DNA from: Misgurnus anguillicaudatus
Taxonomy: Eukaryota > Chordata > Actinopteri > Cypriniformes > Cobitidae
Length of the DNA: 64,000 bases
NCBI RefSeq assembly: GCF_027580225.2
Contig: NC_073339.2
Location: 44,410,501 to 44,474,500, forward strand
Reading direction: 5' to 3'
Position 1 is the stretch's first letter. Each line of letters starts with the position of its first letter. Positions 2,785 through 29,596 of the stretch are shown here, piece after piece. The notes below the pieces were generated by a model. The model ran no database searches and was not told the origin of the DNA. It was given only the letters and a program-made list of their open reading frames with translations. The translations under genes were made by a program, and so were the position numbers.

Positions 2785-5700
2785 GTATGAAACCATTGTC
2801 TGTTCACAGTGTTTATTGTTACGGTGTATTTCCACTGCAAATCTCACGGTACATTCACACGGGGCATTAACGCTTGACGAAGGGCGTGTCTGAAGCATGG
2901 ACCTGATGTGATCGTCATAGTTACAACCGTCAATCACAGTGGACTGCGACACATGCTCCAATGTTCTCTGGTCTTGCATACATGTAATTGGCTAGCATCT
3001 GCACTAGGTTATTTGAATAAGGTGATCTGATTGGCTGACGCCAAAGTTGAGAAATGTTCAACTTCTGCCACAAGCAACGACATTGATGCGACGCCGACAG
3101 ATCCACAATTCAGTTCGCCAATGCATGACGGCATCCATTCAAAGTAAATGAGAAGCGTTAACGGTGGCAACGCTGAAATGCCTTCGCTTTGGGGCGTGTT
3201 AGTTCATTTAATGTAAAGCACACCTTTGGAAAAAAAATTCCACACAGATTGCGTTTCCTCATTTTCTTTGAACTTCATTGGTGCTATCTACCAGCTGAAG
3301 TTCAAAACGCCTGAACAATTCAGCAAATGTTCAAGACAGCCCTGTATAAAACACACAATTAAAGTAAATGAGACGTGATTTCAGCTCTGTAATCTACCAG
3401 TTCCCAAATTTTCAGAAACAAACATGCAGTTCGCAAACTACACACTTTATTTGTGCGATCTTCAATCTAAAGTTCTAAACGGCTGAACAATTCAGCAAAT
3501 GTTCAAGGAAATGACACATGATTTCAGCTCAGTACTTCACCGGTTCCGCAAACAGTCGTCAAAATCTTGGCATACTTTTCACAGTGATAGGGGCCCGCCG
3601 TTTTCCACTTGATATTTACCTGAAGTCGAGAAACGCCAACTTTTTTGCCACTCTTAACCTCTTTCAGCACTCGCTCCACTGTCCCATAATGCATAACTTC
3701 CTTTCTTGAATGAAAATCCTCACTCCACGCCAGTGGACACGCACCATAAGAGTGTGACATTGTCGATGTTAGCAAGTGCGACATTAGCAAGTGTGACACT
3801 GGTGATGTTAATAAGTGTAATGTTGGTCATTTTATTGTTGGCAGTGTTAGTGAGTGTAGTATTGGTAATGTTAGCAAGTATAGTTAAAAAAAGTAAAACA
3901 TGAGTCATGGCACTGTATAGTTAGGCTGTATGTAGATGTGGACTGTAGACTATAATCGTCATTGTTAGTGTCAGTGTTAAAGATTAAGCTTCTTGGAAGC
4001 AGTTGGATAAAGCAAAAGTTTCAAAGTTCCAAAGAGAGCTCAAAGGTGAAGTTTAATTTCTGTGGTGCTATTGGCATCAAACATAAACTTCCAGAACGTT
4101 TCCTCTCAGATTCCATTAGTCGGAAAACTGATATTCGGCCCCAAACACGCATCATTGGTTGAGCTAATATTGATTGTGTCTGATTGCTTCAACAAATAAA
4201 ATAATGGAATATTGACTAAATAATGTTTCACAATTGCATTTTTCACAGTGTGAAAGCATTTTAATATATAAATGTGACCCTGGACGACAAAAGTAGCACA
4301 GGTATAGCACAGGATATAAGTAGCACAGGAATAGCACAGGTCGTAAGTAGCACAGGAATAGCACAGGTCGTAACTAGCACAGGAATAGCACAGGTCGTAA
4401 GGAGCACAGGTCATAATTAGCACAGGTATAGCACAGTTCATAATTAGCACAGCTATAGCACAGGTCATAAGTAGCACAGGTATAGCACAGGATTTAAGTA
4501 GCACAGGAATAGCACAGGTTGTAAGTAGCACTAGAATAGCACAGGTCGTAAGTAGCACAGGAATAGCACAGGTCATAAGTAGCACAAGAATAGCACAGGT
4601 CGTAAGTAGCACAGGTATAGCACAGGTCGTAAGTACCACAGGAATAGCACAGGTCGTAAGTAGCACATGTCATAATTAGCACAGGTATAGCACAGGTCAT
4701 AATTAGCACAGGTATAGCACAGGTCATAATTAGCACAGGTATAGCTCAGGTCATAAGTAGCACATGAATAGCACAGGTCATAAGTAGCACAGGGATAGCT
4801 CAGGTCATAAGTAGCACAGGTATAGCACAGGTCATAAGTAGCACATGAATAGCACAGGTCATAAGTAGCACATGAATAGCACAGGTCATAAGTAGCACAT
4901 GAATAGCACAGGTCATACATAGCACAGGTATAGCACAGATCTTAAGTAGCACAGATATAGCACAGGTCATAATTAACACAGGTATAGCACAGGTCATAAG
5001 TAGCACAGGTATAGCACAGGTCATAAGTAGCACAGGTATAGCACAGGTCATAAGTAGCACAGGAATAGAACAGGTCATAGGTAGCACAGGTATAGCACAG
5101 GTCATAAGTAGCACAGGAATAGCACAGGTCGTAAGTGGCACAGATATAGCACAGGTCATAAGTAGCACAGATATAGCACAGGTCATAAGTAGCACAGATA
5201 TAGCACAGATCTTAAGTAGCACAGGTATAGCACAGGTCATAAGTAGGACATGAATATCACAGGTCATAAGTAGCACAGGTATATCACAGGTCATAAGTAG
5301 CACAGGTATAGCACAGGTCATACATAGCACAGGTATAGCACAGATCTTAAGTAGCACAGGTATATTTGTGGCAATAGCCAATAATAGATTGTATGGGTCA
5401 CAACATTTTTTATGCCAAAAATCATTAGGATATTAAGTTAAGATCATGTTCCATAAAGATATGTTGTAAATTTCAAACTGTAAAGATATATAAAAATGTA
5501 TTTATCATTAGTAATATGTGTTGCTAAGGACTTCATTTGTACAACTTTTAAGCCAATTTTCTCAATATTTTGATTTGGATTCAAATTCCAGATTTCAAAT
5601 AGACAAAAATTGTCCTTTCCTAACAAACCATACATCACCGGAAAGATTATTTAATCAGCTTTCAGATGATTTTAAAAAACCCTTTTTGGTCCAGGGTCAC

Positions 5701-8700: not shown

Positions 8701-10764
8701 TAACTATAGTAAATATTAAAGTACACTACAGTAATTACTATAGTTTATTAATTCACTATAGTAATACTACAGTAAAAATTATGGTATGCTACAATTTACC
8801 ATTTATGACATAAACTGTGCTCCTGTATAGGTCAATGATAGAGCGTTGCATTAGCAATGCAAAAGGTAGGTAGACTTTCATTTAAAAGCAACCGCCTTAA
8901 AATAAAGACTCTTTATTAAAGTGTGTGTGTGTGTGTGTCCTAAGCCTGTTTGAAGTCTGTTTTCATAAATGCAATGCACTTTTTTTCTGTGAAACTAGTG
9001 GCTTTTCTCTTCAACTGGATCGGATTCTGCTTGTCTTTCTGTTTGACCAACACCATTGCCGGTCGATACGGTGCCATCTGTGGCTTCGGCCTGTCGCTCA
9101 TCAAATGGATTCTTATCGTGCGGGTGAGTCTCTTAGCTCGATGTATAAGTATGCATACAAAGGGAATTACACCTTTAGTTTTAGTAAAGAAAAGTGTACT
9201 CTTACACGTCTTACAATGTGGTCTCCAACATGGAGCCCGCGGGCACCAATTTGCCATCACATAGTCTGTGAGTTGCCCACCAAAGCACATTCTGTTAATA
9301 GCCTCAATGTCAATATTTATTTATAACATATATTAGGTTTTTAAACTATAATAAAACATTTCAAAAAGTAAAATAAAATAAAATTAACAAGTAAAAGAAT
9401 AACATTTGTTTTATCCATTGTGATAGCCCTTGCTCACAAAAAGTTGGAGACCCCCGTGTTAGACCATATTGATAAATTATAAAAATTTTAGATTTCACAT
9501 TATGTGTAGCAATTTTAAATCTGGATTGAAGTTTTTGCAAATCTGTTTTTTTTTGTCTCGACTTCTTATCAAATTAAAATGAATTTAAAATGAAAATGTT
9601 ACAGCTCACAAACAGTCAATGTTTAATCAAAATCATTTATCTTTAAAGTTTTCAGATTACTTTACCGGATACTTCAATGGACAGTACTGGCTCTGGTGGA
9701 TTTTCCTTGTTCTTGGTAAGTTCATTTTTTGATAATATGGTAAAAAAGTAAGGCAGAAAGTTGCTTCCAAGCTATTTTGTTTTTGAACTGAGAACTAGGC
9801 AGGTTTTTTGCAGCACTGTGGCGCCATCTGGTGGAATATTCACAACATTACATGTTTTTAGATTCAAAATGAAACTTGACATATAATTTATTATTATTAG
9901 TATAAAATTGAATGCACTGTGACCTTTTACGAGAATTATCATTTTTATCATAGCAAAAGACACAAACATACATTAAGTGTTGCATGTCTAAAAGAACTGC
10001 TTTGCTGCTGTTTTGTGACCCTGGACCATGAAAACTGAGATTTAAATAGAGATTTATACATCAGCTGATTAAATAAGCTTTCCACTGATGTATGGTTTGT
10101 TAGGATAGGACAATATTTTGGCTGGGACACAACAAGATTAAAAAATCTGGAATCTTAGGGTACAAAAAAAAAATGGAGAAAATCGCTTTTAAAGTTGTCC
10201 AAATGAAGTCTTTAGCAACACATATTACTAATCATAAATACATTTTTGATATATTTATAGTTGGAAACTTATTAAATATCTTTTTGGAACATGATCTAAA
10301 TGATTTTGGCATAATTTTTTATTTTTATTGTTGGCTATTGCTACGAATATACCATGCGACTTTTGTGGTCCAGGTTCACACGTGTGAGGAGCTCAGATGC
10401 AAAATCCGCTAAACGCCATCTCCGTCAAAAATGTAATAATGATATTAACCGAATGCTCTCAGCACGTATTATAAGTTCATGTTTGCCTAAAATCCCGGCC
10501 TAGGGCCATTCAGAAATACTGCTTTGTTGGCAGAATCCATTAAAAAAAATTTATTTCCAAAAAAAAATGCACTTGCATTTGGTTTTGCATTTGAGTTTTC
10601 ATATACATATACATGCATAAGGCTGATGCATGCTGACCTATTTATTTTTTCCACCTCCAGGTTTGCTGCTTTTCTTCAGAGGGTTTGTCAACTACCTGAA
10701 GGTGCGTAACATGTCGGAAAGCATGGTGTCTTCGCTTCGAACCCGTTTCTTCCTTCTTTACTAG
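2619..10764 (+). CDS. ndfip2: ndfip2, NEDD4 family-interacting protein 2 (3' part, six coding exons; exon 1 outside window)
   Basis: Membrane adaptor of Golgi and endosomes that recruits and activates NEDD4-family (WW-HECT) ubiquitin ligases. Exons 2619-2784, 6017-6135, 7714-7801, 8999-9123, 9649-9715 and 10661-10764 total 669 nt and join in one frame: 222 residues plus TAG. Counting from the first visible Leu, an acidic Ser-rich N-terminal part is followed by PPxY motifs at 41-44 and 66-69 and by LPTY at 75-78; these bind WW domains. Three hydrophobic segments follow at about 118-140, 146-166 and 179-200, then a short tail ending Leu-Leu-Tyr. The stretches FPVPPPYSVATSLPTYDEAE and NTIAGRYGAICGFGLSLIKW resemble NDFIP2 more than NDFIP1. 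The initiator exon is upstream of base 1. Function is from the family; identity and exon joins are read from sequence. Only the end of exon 3 is uncertain. Confidence 0.96.
3290..3560. repeat. local tandem duplication, about 175-bp period, two copies
   Basis: CTGAACAATTCAGCAAATGT occurs at about 3310 and again at about 3483, each followed some distance on by a diverged GATTTCAGCTC segment. The second copy is incomplete. Confidence 0.6.
3750..3890. repeat. degenerate short minisatellite
   Basis: Loosely repeated GTTAGCAAGTGTGAC-like units of about 15 bases produce overlapping low-complexity open frames on both strands. No support for coding. Confidence 0.5.
4273..5701 (-). mobile_element. MITE with TGTGACCCTGG / CCAGGGTCACA ends, enlarged by an internal minisatellite
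   Basis: Inverted ends TGTGACCCTGGACGACAAAA (4273) and TTTTTGGTCCAGGGTCACA (to 5701) frame an interior related, in reverse orientation, to a compact copy at 10014-10381 and a split copy at 41392-42442. The compact copy is 368 bp; this one is 1429 bp because about 1070 bp of 27-bp tandem repeat sits just inside one end. Non-autonomous, in ndfip2 intron 2. Confidence 0.85.
4291..5361. repeat. 27-bp minisatellite, about 40 units
   Basis: Units read approximately AAGTAGCACAGG-TATAGCACAGGTCAT, with A/T, G/A and C/T variants and some shortened units. As 27 is nine codons, the array gives long open frames on the minus strand (nine-residue repeats such as MTCAIPVLL and other-frame YDLCYSCAT); these are artefacts of period, not genes. 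The unit matches the MITE's own subterminal sequence at 5340-5361. Confidence 0.95.
5903..5972 (+). repeat. possible SINE head fragment
   Basis: CATGTAACTTAACTGGTAGA and a following GGTTGTGGGTTTGATTTGG resemble the diverged tRNA-derived A- and B-box head of the SINE family, without the tail. It lies about 45 bases upstream of exon 3, close enough to overlap its branch-point region. Confidence 0.4.
6017..6135 (+). CDS. ndfip2: ndfip2 exon 3 (PPPY and LPTY motifs)
   Basis: Acceptor TTTGCAG ends at 6016. The exon encodes ESAFPGDFPVPPPYSVATSL, then PTYDEAEKAKAAAMAASAVE. The frame stays open past the likely end to 6213. The donor was set by phase: exon 4 must begin in phase 0, and among nearby GT sites only GAG|GTCATT at 6136 leaves phase 0. 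The better-looking GTATCT at 6153 leaves phase 2 and would shift the frame. The chosen donor is weak, so the end is the least certain boundary of the gene. Confidence 0.85.
6136..7713 (+). other. ndfip2: ndfip2 intron 3
   Basis: Contains a nearly palindromic MITE at 6981-7459 ending about 255 bases before exon 4. 6136-6980 and 7460-7713 show no recognised feature. Confidence 0.8.
6981..7459. mobile_element. palindromic MITE, ends CACTGCAAAAAA / TGCAGTG, flanked by TA
   Basis: Two arms of about 230 bp are mutually inverted: CTTAGTATTTTGTC, AAGATGCTTTTTCTTGATGAG and GTGATTTTGTGCATAAAACA in the left arm recur as complements in the right arm in mirrored order. TA on both sides suggests a Tc1/mariner-like or similar TA target. 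A second full copy is at 41730-42215 and a half copy at 42216-42400. Confidence 0.9.
7714..7801 (+). CDS. ndfip2: ndfip2 exon 4 (start of membrane segment 1)
   Basis: A T-rich tract ending TTTGAG at 7713 is the acceptor and GTAAGT at 7802 the donor. It encodes DEDFPVRDDFSDADQLRVGN, then DGIFMLAFF, the most conserved cytosolic juxtamembrane part of the family and the beginning of the first membrane segment. It ends after one base (A) of the Met codon completed in exon 5. A second AG six bases downstream (7719) is an alternative acceptor in the same phase that would drop Asp-Glu. Confidence 0.93.
8610..8805. repeat. AT-rich repeat with CTACAGTAA motifs
   Basis: Multiple alternating ACTATAGTAAAT and ACTACAGTAA words in both orientations, as in AT-rich palindromic MITE relics. 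Boundaries approximate. Confidence 0.45.
8826..8882 (+). repeat. SINE head fragment (tRNA-like)
   Basis: ATAGAGCGTTGCATTAGCAA followed by TGCAAAAGGTAG matches the head of the SINE copies at 36010 and 45180; the tail is missing. Confidence 0.55.
8922..8938. repeat. (GT)n microsatellite
   Basis: Short uninterrupted GT run 60 bases upstream of exon 5, upstream of that exon's pyrimidine tract. Confidence 0.9.
8999..9123 (+). CDS. ndfip2: ndfip2 exon 5 (membrane segments 1 and 2)
   Basis: Acceptor CTAG ends at 8998; donor GTGAGT begins at 9124. It encodes MAFLFNWIGFCLSFCLTN, then TIAGRYGAICGFGLSLIKWI and LIVR, which is most of membrane segment 1, the loop and segment 2. It ends in phase 0 after Arg. 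A (GT)n run lies just upstream at 8922-8938. Confidence 0.96.
9124..9648 (+). other. ndfip2: ndfip2 intron 5
   Basis: The central half is a MITE-like repeat at 9214-9460; the rest is AT-rich unique sequence. Confidence 0.8.
9214..9460. mobile_element. short inverted-repeat element, ends GTGGTCTCCAAC / GTTGGAGACCCCC
   Basis: GTGGTCTCCAACATGGAGCC near 9218 is mirrored by AAAAAGTTGGAGACCCCC ending near 9456, with AT-rich DNA between and no coding content. Looks like a hAT-type MITE; target duplication not clear. Confidence 0.6.
9649..9715 (+). CDS. ndfip2: ndfip2 exon 6 (aromatic loop and start of membrane segment 3)
   Basis: Acceptor TTTAAAG ends at 9648; donor GTAAGT at 9716. The 67-nt exon encodes FSDYFTGYFNGQYWLWWIFL and VL, the aromatic loop before membrane segment 3 that is almost invariant in the family, and ends after the first base of a Gly codon. 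Confidence 0.95.
10014..10381 (+). mobile_element. complete compact MITE, ends TGTGACCCTGG / CCAGGTTCACA
   Basis: 368-bp copy of the family at 4273-5701 in the opposite orientation, with the same landmarks in order: ATACATCAGCTGATTAAATA, GTTGTCCAAATGAAG, TTGGCTATTGCTACGAATAT and the terminal TTTTGTGGTCCAGG. It lacks any minisatellite and so shows the unexpanded state. Confidence 0.88.
10385..10640 (+). repeat. dispersed repeat, GAGGAGCTCAGATGC start
   Basis: GAGGAGCTCAGATGCAAAAT to CTTTGTTGGCAGAATCCATT is matched by a second copy broken by an insertion at 36143-36192 and about 36890-36965. Terminal limits unclear; non-coding. Confidence 0.7.
10661..10764 (+). CDS. ndfip2: ndfip2 exon 7, terminal coding part with stop codon
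   Basis: Acceptor CCACCTCCAG ends at 10660. It encodes GLLLFFRGFVNYLKVRNM, then SESMVSSLRTRFFLLY and TAG (10762-10764). Basic residues follow the third membrane segment and the tail ends in a hydrophobic Tyr-terminated motif, as in vertebrate NDFIP2. Confidence 0.96.
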
Positions 10765-16600: not shown

Positions 16601-17352
16601 ATAAAACACGTGAATTGAAAGGTCAACTAACAATCGCCTTAACGTTGTGTTAGAATTTAGAAATATAAAAAAATTTAAGCAATCAACAACAAAGATGTTT
16701 TTTTGACCACTGCCATTGTAGCAGTCAGAGAATTTGGCCTTTGATAATTTTATATTTATATGCTAATGAATTAAATTAGGGGCGTTTACAAGGCGGATTT
16801 CTAAGAGCATTCGGCTGCGCACAATTTTAAGATCATTTGTGATTTATAAACTGCACATCTGGAAAAGAGGCCTACGCACGTTTTTTGTGCGTACGCTCCT
16901 TTTCTCTGAATCACATCTAAGATCATTTCAGAAATGGTCTTAGATGAAATATAGGATAGTCCCTACGTCACACTTTTATAAATGAGGCCCCTGGTGTTTT
17001 GACAGAGGTTTTTGATTTTTTTAAACTTAAGGTAGATGTTATATCACCACTGACAAGGGTAGCCCATGTAAAAATCCTTTGGGGTCACCACACCAAAACA
17101 TCAGTGCCACATCCAGCAACACAAGACAGGCATCTCTATTTTATGCCTGATGTCCCACATTTGGTGAAAAATCTTAAAAGTGCATTTGTCCGTGGACAGG
17201 TTTTCCAAATTCCAAAAGATGTTGTCAGCAAGAAAAACCTGTGTTCCAGTGAGGTTTCTGTGGTCCCAGTTAAGGACTTGTTGGGCTTTCAAGAAGGGAT
17301 GCCATTAAAAAAAGCTCCCCATCAATCAGCTTCAGCTATTGAACCACTTTAA

Positions 17353-17730
17353 AGGTGCAGTGTGTAATTTTTAGAAGGATCTCCTGACAGAAATGCTAAA
17401 TAATATACAAAACTATATTATCAGGGGTGTATAAAGACCTTTAATAATGAACCGTTATGTGTTTATTATCTCAGAACGAGACCTTTTTATCTACATACAC
17501 CGAGGGTCCCCTTACATGGAAGTCGCCATTTTGTGGCGCCATTTTTCTACAGAAGCCCTTAACGGATAATTTTTTTTACTAAGTTGTCTCCAATGATGAC
17601 ATGTTTGTCCGGTGGTGGCTACCATAGCTTCTCTATGTGTTTCAAAAGCGAAGGGTGAGCAGTGGACTAACATGTTGGTTGCAATTCGCAACCTCACCAC
17701 TAGATGCCGCTAAAATTTACACACTGCACC
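17353..17730. mobile_element. MITE, ends AAGGTGCAGTGTGTAATTTTT, between TTAA-like sites
   Basis: AAGGTGCAGTGTGTAATTTT mirrored by AAAATTTACACACTGCACC-TT; CTTTAA borders both sides, compatible with a TTAA-type duplication. Inserted immediately beside the end of the recognisable transposase frame, so it may mark where that frame was cut. Confidence 0.85.
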
Positions 17731-17859
17731 TTTAAATCATGTATTCAGTAAGGCAGAAGTGCTGGGATAAAGTACATGGTGCATGGTGCAGGAAAAACGC
17801 CCTCTGACTTACTCTGACTACAAGATTTACACAAGATTCCCTTAATAATATAGTGGCAA

Positions 17860-17954: not shown

Positions 17955-18101
17955 TCACTCAGTCTGGCGCACGACCTCAACGTCATCGTTCTTAGCCACC
18001 CCCTCTGTTCGCTGATTGGACCTGCAGATTCCAGACGTTGTGCTGAAGCGAAATGAAAATTAAGCGGAAGCACGTAGGAGGGTGGAGCCAGGCTAATGTA
18101 T
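17955..18101. mobile_element. short MITE, ends AGTCTGGC / GCCAGGCT
   Basis: About 147 bp with short inverted ends and GC-rich, CpG-containing interior; resembles known GCCAGGCT-ended fish MITEs. Target duplication not resolved. Confidence 0.5.
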
Positions 18102-18367: not shown

Positions 18368-18488
18368 CATACACACCAAAGTATCATAGTATAACTATCA
18401 CTGATACCATGGTACAACCAGAGTACCATTACAAATATTAGTTGACTTTAAAATGCATTGATTTATTTTTTATGTTGCTGTAATTACT
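18368..18488. repeat. locally duplicated unit, copy 1 (left piece)
   Basis: CACACCAAAGTATCATAG through GATACCATGGTACAACCAGA to GTTGCTGTAATTACT. It continues after the inserted element at 19405-19690, and the next copy begins there with the same CACACCAAAGTATCAT at about 19692. Confidence 0.8.
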
Positions 18489-19404
18489 TAGCCTGACGTT
18501 GTCATACTCAATTCTAGTCAGAATTTGAGTCTGATACCGCTCCATTGAGCTAAAATTATGAGGCGTGTCTCAACAGAAAAATGCCTCTGCACTCAATTGG
18601 ATAGACATACGACCAATCAGAGCAACGGAGTGTGTGATGTTGAAATGGCGTCTTTAGCAGCCTGACCGAACTGCTAGTAATTTCGCTACAATGATACTAA
18701 CATCATTGTAATTATACTAAGTCTGAGTTAGCGAAGGTACATCAACACCTACTATGTTTACAACATTTCATTTATAACACAACATTAAGTATTTACTAAG
18801 TCATACAGTAAGACTATCTCTTACCATTTGTACGTTAGGTGAACTTCATCCACGACGATAGCTACCCATTACGTTGGCTTGAAAAATATCGGAGCCTAGC
18901 ATGTCCCTCCACTTATTCAGCAGTCACGATTCCAGGCTTCCGAAAAGAAGCTGGCAACGACCGCTAATTATATCCATCTCGTCGTGCACGCCGAGTTGCA
19001 TCGCCGTGATACCCATTTCAGTTGCTTCTTTAACTTTGTCCTCCATAGGAAGGACGGCGAAAACATAAACAAATGCCTTGATCGCGTTTCTCTGTTCCGC
19101 TTTTTAAATCAATGCTCTGTCGATATCTTTTAGAACAGACTCAATTTCAGAATCCACACATCTGAATTCACCAGCGGCAGCCATTTCATTGTAAACAGAT
19201 TGAACACACGCGCTCTTTGGTGACGTGGTTGATATGTTAGTGTTGATCATCTGTCCATCATCGTATAAAGCCCGCCCTCACAATTTGATTCGTCGGCCGG
19301 TTTTGGTATTCGCATAGTAGCTCCTCAACGGTGAATCCCCAGACCGATCTTCCCGTTTTTCAAATCGTGGTGGGCGGGGCTAAGATTGGCTGGCACCCAG
19401 GCTA
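18489..19404 (-). mobile_element. TAGCCTG-ended element carrying a RecQ-like helicase relic
   Basis: Begins TAGCCTGACG and ends CACCCAGGCTA; GTAATTACT is duplicated exactly on both sides (18480-18488, 19405-19413). The 7-bp terminal repeat and a 9-bp duplication set it apart from the hAT and TTAA families here. The sister unit at about 20310 has the empty site, confirming the borders. The interior contains a minus-strand helicase relic and GC-rich flanks. Non-autonomous by deletion. Confidence 0.82.
18822..19184 (-). pseudogene. RecQ-like DNA helicase relic (N-terminal part)
   Basis: From ATG at 19184 downwards: MAAAGEFRCVDSEIESVLKD, then KAEQRNAIKAFVYVFAVLP, MEDKVKEATEMGITAMQLG, VHDEMDIISGRCQLLFG, and after a frame change VVDEVHLTYKW followed by GTAAGAG, a plausible intron donor. 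This resembles predicted RecQ-like helicases common as multicopy genes in fish genomes: QxxAI-type motif, the motif II box DEVH and the exon end. The Walker A region is absent between AVLP and MED (deletion), and stops occur at the TAA near 19107 and a TGA near 18929. Host role unknown; dead copy. Assignment rests on motif recall. Confidence 0.7.
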
Positions 19405-19783
19405 GTAATTACTATGACTTTATCATGACAGTTTTTTTGGTAACAGTTTTCATTTGAGTGCATTATTTTTACAAAATTGTACTATGATAATAATAGATTC
19501 TGCCAAAACACTACACTCACTACAGTCATTGTTACTACACTAAAGTGGTATACAGTAAGGTTGAATTATTTTTATGAAATTGGTGGCAATAGCCAGGTTA
19601 CCGCAGTAAATTTTTCATACTAAATTGCACTAACTATTGCATTTTGGCACATTTTGGACATGGTGCCATTGCAATAAATGGTATGTGGACACACCAAAGT
19701 ATCATGGTATAACTTACTGATACCGTGGTACAACCAGAGTATTTTTGAGTATCATTACAAAAATTAGTTCATGTTAACTTTAA
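19405..19783. repeat. locally duplicated unit, copy 1 right piece and copy 2 left piece
   Basis: AATTACTATGACTTTATCAT, ATTGTACTATGATAATAATA and CTGCCAAAACACTAC recur at 20310-20410; CACCAAAGTATCATGG at 19692 repeats 18369. Indicates unequal duplication of a roughly 350-400-bp unit before the two transposons inserted. Confidence 0.8.
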
Positions 19784-27061: not shown

Positions 27062-29596
27062 GTCAGATTACTGATGTATTTAGATATTTTTACAGAACAA
27101 ACTACAGTAAATAACAGTGATGTATAACATGGAGACAGATAACTGATCCATTTAGATATTGGAACAGAACAAAACTACAGTAAATAACAGTAGGCATAAC
27201 GTATAACATGGAGACAGATTACAGATGCATTTAGATAATGGAACAGAATAAAACTACGGTAAATAACAGTGATGCACAACATGGAGACAGATTACTGATC
27301 CATTTAGATATTGGAACAGAACAAAACTACAGTAAATAACAGTAGGCACAATGTATAACATGGAGACAGTTTACAGATGCATTTGGATATTGGAACAGAA
27401 CAAAACTACGGTAAATAACAGTGATGCACAACATGGAGACAGACTAGTGATATATTTAGTTATTGGAACAGAACAAAACTACGGTAAATAACAGTGATGT
27501 ATAACATGGAGACAGATTACCGATCCATTTAGATATTGGAACAGAACAAAACTACAGTTAATAACAGTAGGCACAATGTATAACGTGGAGACAGATTACA
27601 GATGCATTTGAATATTGAAACAGAATAAAACTACGGTAAATAACAGTGATGCACAACATGGAGACAGATTACTGATCCATTTAGATATTGGAACAGAACA
27701 AAACTACAGTAAATAACAGTAGGCACAATGTATAACATGGAGACAGATTACAGATGTATTTAGATATTGGAACAGAAAAAAACTACAGTAAATAACAGTC
27801 GGCACAATGTATTAGATGGAGAAAGATTACAGATGCATTTAGTTTAGATAATGGAACAGAACAAAACTACAGTAAATAACAGTGATGCACAACATGGAGA
27901 CAGATTACTGATCCATTTAGATATTGGAACAGAACAAAACTACAGTAAATAACAGTGATGTATAACATGGAGACAGATTATCGATGTATTTAGATATTGG
28001 AACAGAACAAACTACAGTAAATAACAGTGATGTATAACATGGAGACAGATTACTGATCCATTTAGATATTGGAACAGAACAAAACTACAGTAAATAACAG
28101 TAGGCACAATGTATAACATGGAGACAGATTACAGATGCATTTAGTTTAGATAATGGAACAGAACAAAACTACAGTAAATAACAGTGATGTATAACATGGA
28201 GACAGATTACTGATGCATTTAGATAATGGAACAGAATAAAACTACGGTAAATAACAGTGATGCACAACATGGAGACAGATTACTGATCCATTTAGATATT
28301 GGAACAGAACAAAACTACAGTAAATAACAGTAGGCACAATGTATAACATGGAGACAGATTACAGATGCATTTGAAAATTGAAACAGAATAAAACTACGGT
28401 AAATAACACAACATGCACAACATGGAGACAGATTACTGATCCATTTAGATATTGGAACAGAACAAAACTACAGTAAATAACAGTGATGTATAACATGGAG
28501 ACAGATTATCGATGTATTTAGATATTGGAACAGAACAAACTACAGTAAATAACAGTGATGTATAACATGGAGACAGATTACTGATCCATTTAGATATTGG
28601 AACAGAACAAAACTACAGTAAATAACAGTAGGCATAACGTATAACATGGAGACAGATTACAGATGCATTTAGATAATGGAACAGAATAAAACTACGGTAA
28701 ATAACAGTGATGCACAACATGGAGACAGATTACTGATCCATTTAGATATTGGAACAGAACAAAACTACAGTAAATAACAGTAGGCACAATGTATAACATG
28801 GAGACAGATTACAGATGCATTTGAATATTGAAACAGAATAAAACTACGGTAAATAACAGTGATGTATAACATGGAGACAGATTACCGATGTATTTAGATA
28901 TTGGAACAGAACAAAACTACAGTAAATAACAGTAGGCACAATGTATAACATGGAGACAGATTACAGATGCATTTAGTTTAGATAATGGAACAGAACAAAA
29001 CTACAGTAAATAACAGTGATGCACAACATGGAGACAGATTACTGATCCATTTAGATATTGGAACAGAACAAAACTACAGTAAATAACAGTAGGCACAATG
29101 TATAACATGGAGACAGATTACAGATGCATTTGGATATTGGAACAGAACAAAACTAAATAACAGTGATGTATAACATGGAGACATATTACTGATGCATTTA
29201 GATAATGGAACAGAACAAAACTACGGTAAATAACAGTGATGTATAACATGGAGACAGATTACTGATGCATTTGGATATTGGAACCGAACAAAACTACAGT
29301 AAATAACAGTGATGTATAACATGGAGACAGATTACCGATGTATTAAGATATTGTAACATAACAAAACTACAGTAAATAACAGTGATTTATAACATGGAGA
29401 CAGATTACCAATGTATTTAGATATTGTAACAGAACAAAACTACAGTAATAAACAGTGATGTATAACATGGAGACAGATTATTGAAACAGAACAAAACTCC
29501 AGTAAATAACAGTGATGTACAACATGGAGGCAGATGCATTTAGATATTGAAAAGAACAAAATTACGATAAATAACAGTAGGCCTAATGTATAACAT
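27062..29596. repeat. satellite array, 73-79-bp units, about 34 copies
   Basis: Units contain, in order, GATGCATTTAGATATTGGAA, CAGAACAAAACTACAGTAAA, TAACAGTGATGTATAACATG and GAGACAGATTACT. Two main forms alternate: AACAGTGATG(TATAAC/CACAAC) and a form about 6 bases longer, AACAGTAGGCACAATGTATA. Runs of the two forms in the same order, plus rare ATTTAGTTTAGATAATGG variants recurring at about 27840, 28143 and 28975, indicate higher-order units. The array decays toward the right end. Minus-strand open frames are artefacts. Confidence 0.95.

Follow-up and report, generated by a model that had tools for sequence, protein, structure and literature searches.

A stretch of 64,000 nucleotides from Misgurnus anguillicaudatus, hereafter the window, contains a short element in which part of a RecQ-like helicase can be read. 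The locus raises the question of whether this helicase is what is left of a host gene or belongs to a mobile element and, in the second case, to which lineage of transposons the element should be assigned. An earlier note on this DNA had read it as a transposon with a helicase relic, and had suggested that at least part of the multiplicity of RecQ-like genes in fish genomes is the cargo of such an element.

Results

The element is 916 bp long (18489–19404, with the relic in the minus direction) and terminates in the inverted repeat TAGCCTG, present at 18489–18495 on the plus strand and at 19398–19404 on the minus strand. Exact copies of a 9-bp duplication, GTAATTACT, lie immediately outside it at 18480–18488 and 19405–19413, and the span and length agree exactly with those of the earlier note. 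The inverted ends are perfect for 7 bp, and pairing between them is lost beyond base 7. With a spacing of 200–1500 bp, the element is the sole pair of 7-bp inverted ends with an exact 9-bp repeat in the window; four such pairs appear when a spacing of up to 20,000 bp is allowed. None of 20 mononucleotide shuffles contained a pair of this kind; of 150 first-order Markov simulations, 11 did, so that chance alone would yield one in about 7% of windows of this size. The ends and the duplication alone are thus weak evidence, and it is homology that decides. TAGCCTG itself occurs four times in the window, against 5.1 occurrences expected.

No second copy of the element was found in the window. A scan for like elements, allowing at most one mismatch in each 7-bp end and at most one in a repeat of 8–10 bp, with a spacing of 60–6000 bp, returned only the element at 18489–19404, and the CAGGCTA sites at 18089 and 36776 are therefore without such a partner. 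Just left of the element, GGTGGAGCCAGGCTA (18081–18095) resembles its right end; a partner end with a duplication was not found for it in the window scan.

The relic of helicase exon 1 spans 18825–19184 on the minus strand, from MAAAGEF, which begins at 19184, to DEVHLTYKW. The block MEDKVKEATEMGITAMQLG is present letter for letter on the same strand. The reading crosses two in-frame stops and then shifts frame once, ahead of VVDEVHLTYKW, leaving the DEVH box in another frame. Three stretches of the relative P0001, of 3, 36 and 1 residues, are absent from the relic; the Walker A segment lies within the 36, so that its deletion, proposed earlier, is borne out; the corresponding junction falls at 19046–19047 on the minus strand. 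TYKW is followed by the splice-donor-like GTAAGA (18819–18824, minus strand), which the earlier note had taken for an exon end. This exon end looks conserved, since YKW is the exact end of the protein in 6 of 74 relatives and YKWG is contained in 20 of the 74.

A read-through of the relic, 119 residues long, matched 29 of 31 candidate proteins at E ≤ 0.01, including proteins of plaice, Anabarilius (named ‘helicase Q-like 3’), anchovy (‘RecQ-like’), grouper and snailfish. Scans of the relic with Pfam and NCBIfam gave no match, and no solved relative was found at E ≤ 1; the relic is 91% identical to a plaice member of the family over 74 aa.

The helicase and the ends of the element are linked by several proteins. 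Seventy-four relatives, that is, those of two protein searches together with P0074 of a third, the other 118 proteins first listed in the third search being left out, were compared with the whole window by tblastn. All 90 matches, which came from 57 of the 74 proteins, fall inside the element. Upstream of exon 1 lies a leader (19185–19404, minus strand), and residues 17–79 of P0029 align to 19401–19213 of it with 41% identity over 66 columns, stops included. This homology starts at the codon adjoining the terminal TAG of the element, in place of which P0029 has Q (residue 16), and for residues 1–15 the 1.3 kb surrounding the element gave no match at E ≤ 1. Residues 58–131 of P0029 align to 19277–19047, entering a helicase exon 1 in which the block lost from the present element is retained, although the Walker A there reads TGFSKN. 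P0029 would thus come from another copy with the same end, the same leader and the same helicase exon. Parts of the leader are also contained in plaice P0004 and P0019.

The opposite end region is represented in plaice P0020, in which exon 1 continues into a C-terminal stretch that matches 18606–18521 on the minus strand (19 aa at 79% and 10 aa at 90%). Inner parts that differ among copies are missing from P0004, P0018, P0019, P0020 and P0026, five of the 17 relatives read out of 29, which suggests that these may be non-autonomous derivatives of a DNA transposon. Four of the five, P0004, P0019, P0020 and P0026, come from annotated genomes as gene models, and some of the apparent deletions may therefore be predicted introns. 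If the gap in P0020 is an intron, its end region would even so follow the helicase exon on the same strand.

Intact full-length helicases of this family were found in several fish. A second protein search, with the length window widened, scored 1180 candidates, of which 44 matched at E ≤ 1e-10. The family includes members in killifish, loach, gobies and lancelets, as well as in anchovy, where a cluster comprises 31 member sequences; more distant relatives occur in bivalves, a sponge and an octocoral. The full-length relatives have about 590 aa; P0030 of shad, with 596 aa, is 85% identical over the query. By pattern match, Walker A, DExH, QxxGRxGR and CCxxC are all kept in 16 of 18 relatives of 560–660 aa, the exceptions being P0050, without Walker A, and P0051, without DExH. 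P0030 matches the DEAD and Helicase_C domains. Among solved proteins it is closest to RecQ (9.8e-34) and WRN (2.4e-33), followed by human RECQL (1.5e-22). Of the 50 Foldseek matches listed for a predicted model of P0030 (mean pLDDT 86.2, pTM 0.74), every one is a RecQ, WRN, BLM or RecQ1/RecQL entry; the TM by query length is at most 0.59 and the rmsd is often large.

Motifs, best relatives and the predicted fold agree in that the full-length relatives look like intact RecQ-type helicases. P0030, P0031, P0034 and P0035, four of four, missed the curated cut-off of NCBIfam recQ_fam (178.8–193.5 against 219.8 bits), and for this reason the family is called RecQ-like here. The names given to it in databases are helicase Q1, Q-like 3, RecQ-like and RecS. 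In flounder, the first 60 or so residues of P0060, a ‘centrosomal protein of 41 kDa-like’, belong to the helicase family; P0060 would be either a gene model that absorbed the exon of a transposon or a true insertion.

Taken together, the linkage seen in P0029 and P0020, the confinement of all matches to the element and the existence of intact full-length relatives indicate that the helicase is part of the element. The central claim of the earlier note, a transposon with a RecQ-like helicase relic, is supported by the same confinement, by other copies in which one or the other end region is joined to helicase sequence, and by the closeness of the relic to a fish family of many copies.

The second gene envisaged earlier for longer copies, a transposase or nuclease, did not appear: no transposase was found in the 916-bp element or in the protein searches. 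The third search scored 7991 candidates and found 528 matches; the 120 listed are mostly RecQ-type proteins of bacterial or unassigned origin, with no named fish protein and no recognised fusion of helicase and transposase among them. None of their labels is one that we take to denote a transposase. Viral contigs searched with P0001 and P0030 contained no relative, and neither did prokaryote genome contigs searched with P0030.

Other features were observed in the surroundings of the element. An open frame of 130 aa, beginning LYFMPDVPHLVKNLKSAF (16960–17349, plus strand), is reminiscent of transposases of the P-element/THAP9 type; it had no Pfam match and only a chance match in the PDB (E 0.11). 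Directly after it, a short element at 17348–17736, with 35-nt inverted arms that are 89% complementary and 319 nt apart, looks like a MITE. A NEDD4_Bsd2 domain (E 1e-18) is encoded at 8944–9261 on the plus strand, and PPPY motifs occur in upstream frames at 2739 and 6046 on the same strand; these frames are presumably exons of a host gene of the Ndfip type. Large tandem arrays are present at 27064–29484 (period 73, 32 copies) and at 4291–5364 (period 54, 19 copies).

Discussion

We consider it likely that the element is a dead, non-autonomous cut-and-paste transposon, derived by internal deletion from a parent with a RecQ-like helicase, which most likely belonged to the AcademH lineage of the Academ superfamily, given the cargo and the length of the duplication. 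The parent would have measured several kb; its helicase gene would have pointed inward from the right end, presumably accompanied by a gene for a DDD/E transposase. Internal deletion of the middle, which would have comprised the remaining helicase exons and the transposase gene, may have given the 916-bp form; this could then have been inserted with a 9-bp stagger by a transposase acting in trans, the copy decaying after insertion. In the parent, the helicase may have aided transposition, for example by unwinding or remodelling DNA at the site of insertion.

The title of the AcademH reference, Kojima 2020 (Mob DNA 11:15), names animals and fungi. According to the extract of PMC10045372, AcademH encodes a helicase and generates duplications of 9 or 10 bp. 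The 9-bp duplication of the present element falls within this range, in one copy only and with a chance of about 7% per window; the helicase is represented by the exon 1 relic inside the element and by relatives with the same end regions. As a helicase-bearing AcademH with duplications of 9–10 bp is already in print in that extract, the idea is not new. The likeness, which extends to the occurrence in animals, lies in the helicase as such, a RecQ-like type not being stated for AcademH in the extracts found, and it was drawn from the description of AcademH, not from AcademH sequences. The present copy also differs in that it lacks a transposase and keeps no more of the helicase than a broken exon 1. 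DEAD and Helicase_C domains are listed for AcademH, KolobokH or Helitron in fungi (extract of PMC10799480). AcademX, which is of the same superfamily as the proposed parent, differs in its duplications of 3–4 bp and in a nuclease in place of the helicase, and the duplication lengths of the two seem to be tied to helicase and nuclease, respectively (extract of PMC10045372). Because no transposase was found, the element is filed as non-autonomous and AcademH-like as a probable assignment, not a proven one.

An origin in a different superfamily that makes 9-bp duplications, MuDR in particular, is rather unlikely; the RecQ-like helicase would then be an accessory gene of that superfamily or captured cargo. 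MuDR generates duplications of 4–10 bp according to the extract of PMC10045372, a range compatible with 9 bp, and there is no transposase to decide between the two. Against MuDR, a helicase-bearing member is not named in the literature found, without a dedicated search, and AcademH alone, of the kinds considered, fits both cargo and duplication. Moreover, the large number of members, from several fish as well as lancelets, favours a stable gene of the element over a single capture. KolobokH, the other named transposon lineage with a RecQ helicase, resembles the proposed parent in carrying a helicase of RecQ type within a DNA transposon, and differs in that it is reported only from fungi and duplicates TTAA (extract of PMC9587614). 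The 9-bp GTAATTACT is observed where TTAA would be expected, and KolobokH, which is hardly credible as a source, was rejected for this difference in duplication.

The relic could also be an ordinary pseudogene, that is, a decayed host RecQ gene or a duplicate of one, with the ends and the repeat arising by chance as they did in the simulations. Host RECQL, WRN and BLM do share the helicase fold and the motifs with the full-length relatives. The likeness is only distant, as the E value of a full-length member against human RECQL attests, and the relic, close as it is to a plaice protein and without a solved relative, sits inside a mobile element. In addition, the homology of P0029 begins at the end of the element, and other copies again have the leader or the opposite end region together with the helicase. 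With human RECQL as the host reference compared, a simple pseudogene of host recql, which had been named as the finding that would overturn the transposon reading, is largely refuted by this linkage and highly improbable. To our knowledge, Helitrons have neither a target duplication nor inverted ends, and a Helitron was rejected since both are present in the element.

The AcademH-like transposon proposed here leaves its spread among fish to be considered. The relic is close to a fish family of many copies. Identity in pieces of exon 1 is 92% for shad and plaice (115 aa), 88% for shad and the cyprinid Anabarilius (133 aa) and 95% for plaice and Anabarilius (73 aa); two plaice copies are 83% identical over 115 aa. 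The full-length proteins of shad and anchovy, the closer relatives, are 58% identical over 593 aa. It is possible, and in our view unlikely, that a helicase-carrying transposon lineage of its own, distinct from AcademH, has passed from one distant fish order to another. The identities of exon 1 would be explained equally well by horizontal transfer and by the presence of several old lineages in each genome.

The suggestion that the fish RecQ-like multiplicity is partly transposon cargo is upheld in one respect, the end regions being linked to the helicase in P0029, P0004 and P0019 on one side and in P0020 on the other; a full-length gene between both ends was not found in the DNA examined, which is the window. 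Part of that multiplicity is thus likely to be the cargo of transposons. The end and leader sequences described here could be used to find full-length copies, and in this way to test the need for the helicase in transposition and in the 9–10-bp stagger. The element may offer a reason at the level of DNA for the many RecQ-like genes predicted in fish genomes, and the family, being probably the cargo of transposons, should not be counted among the DNA-repair genes of the host.
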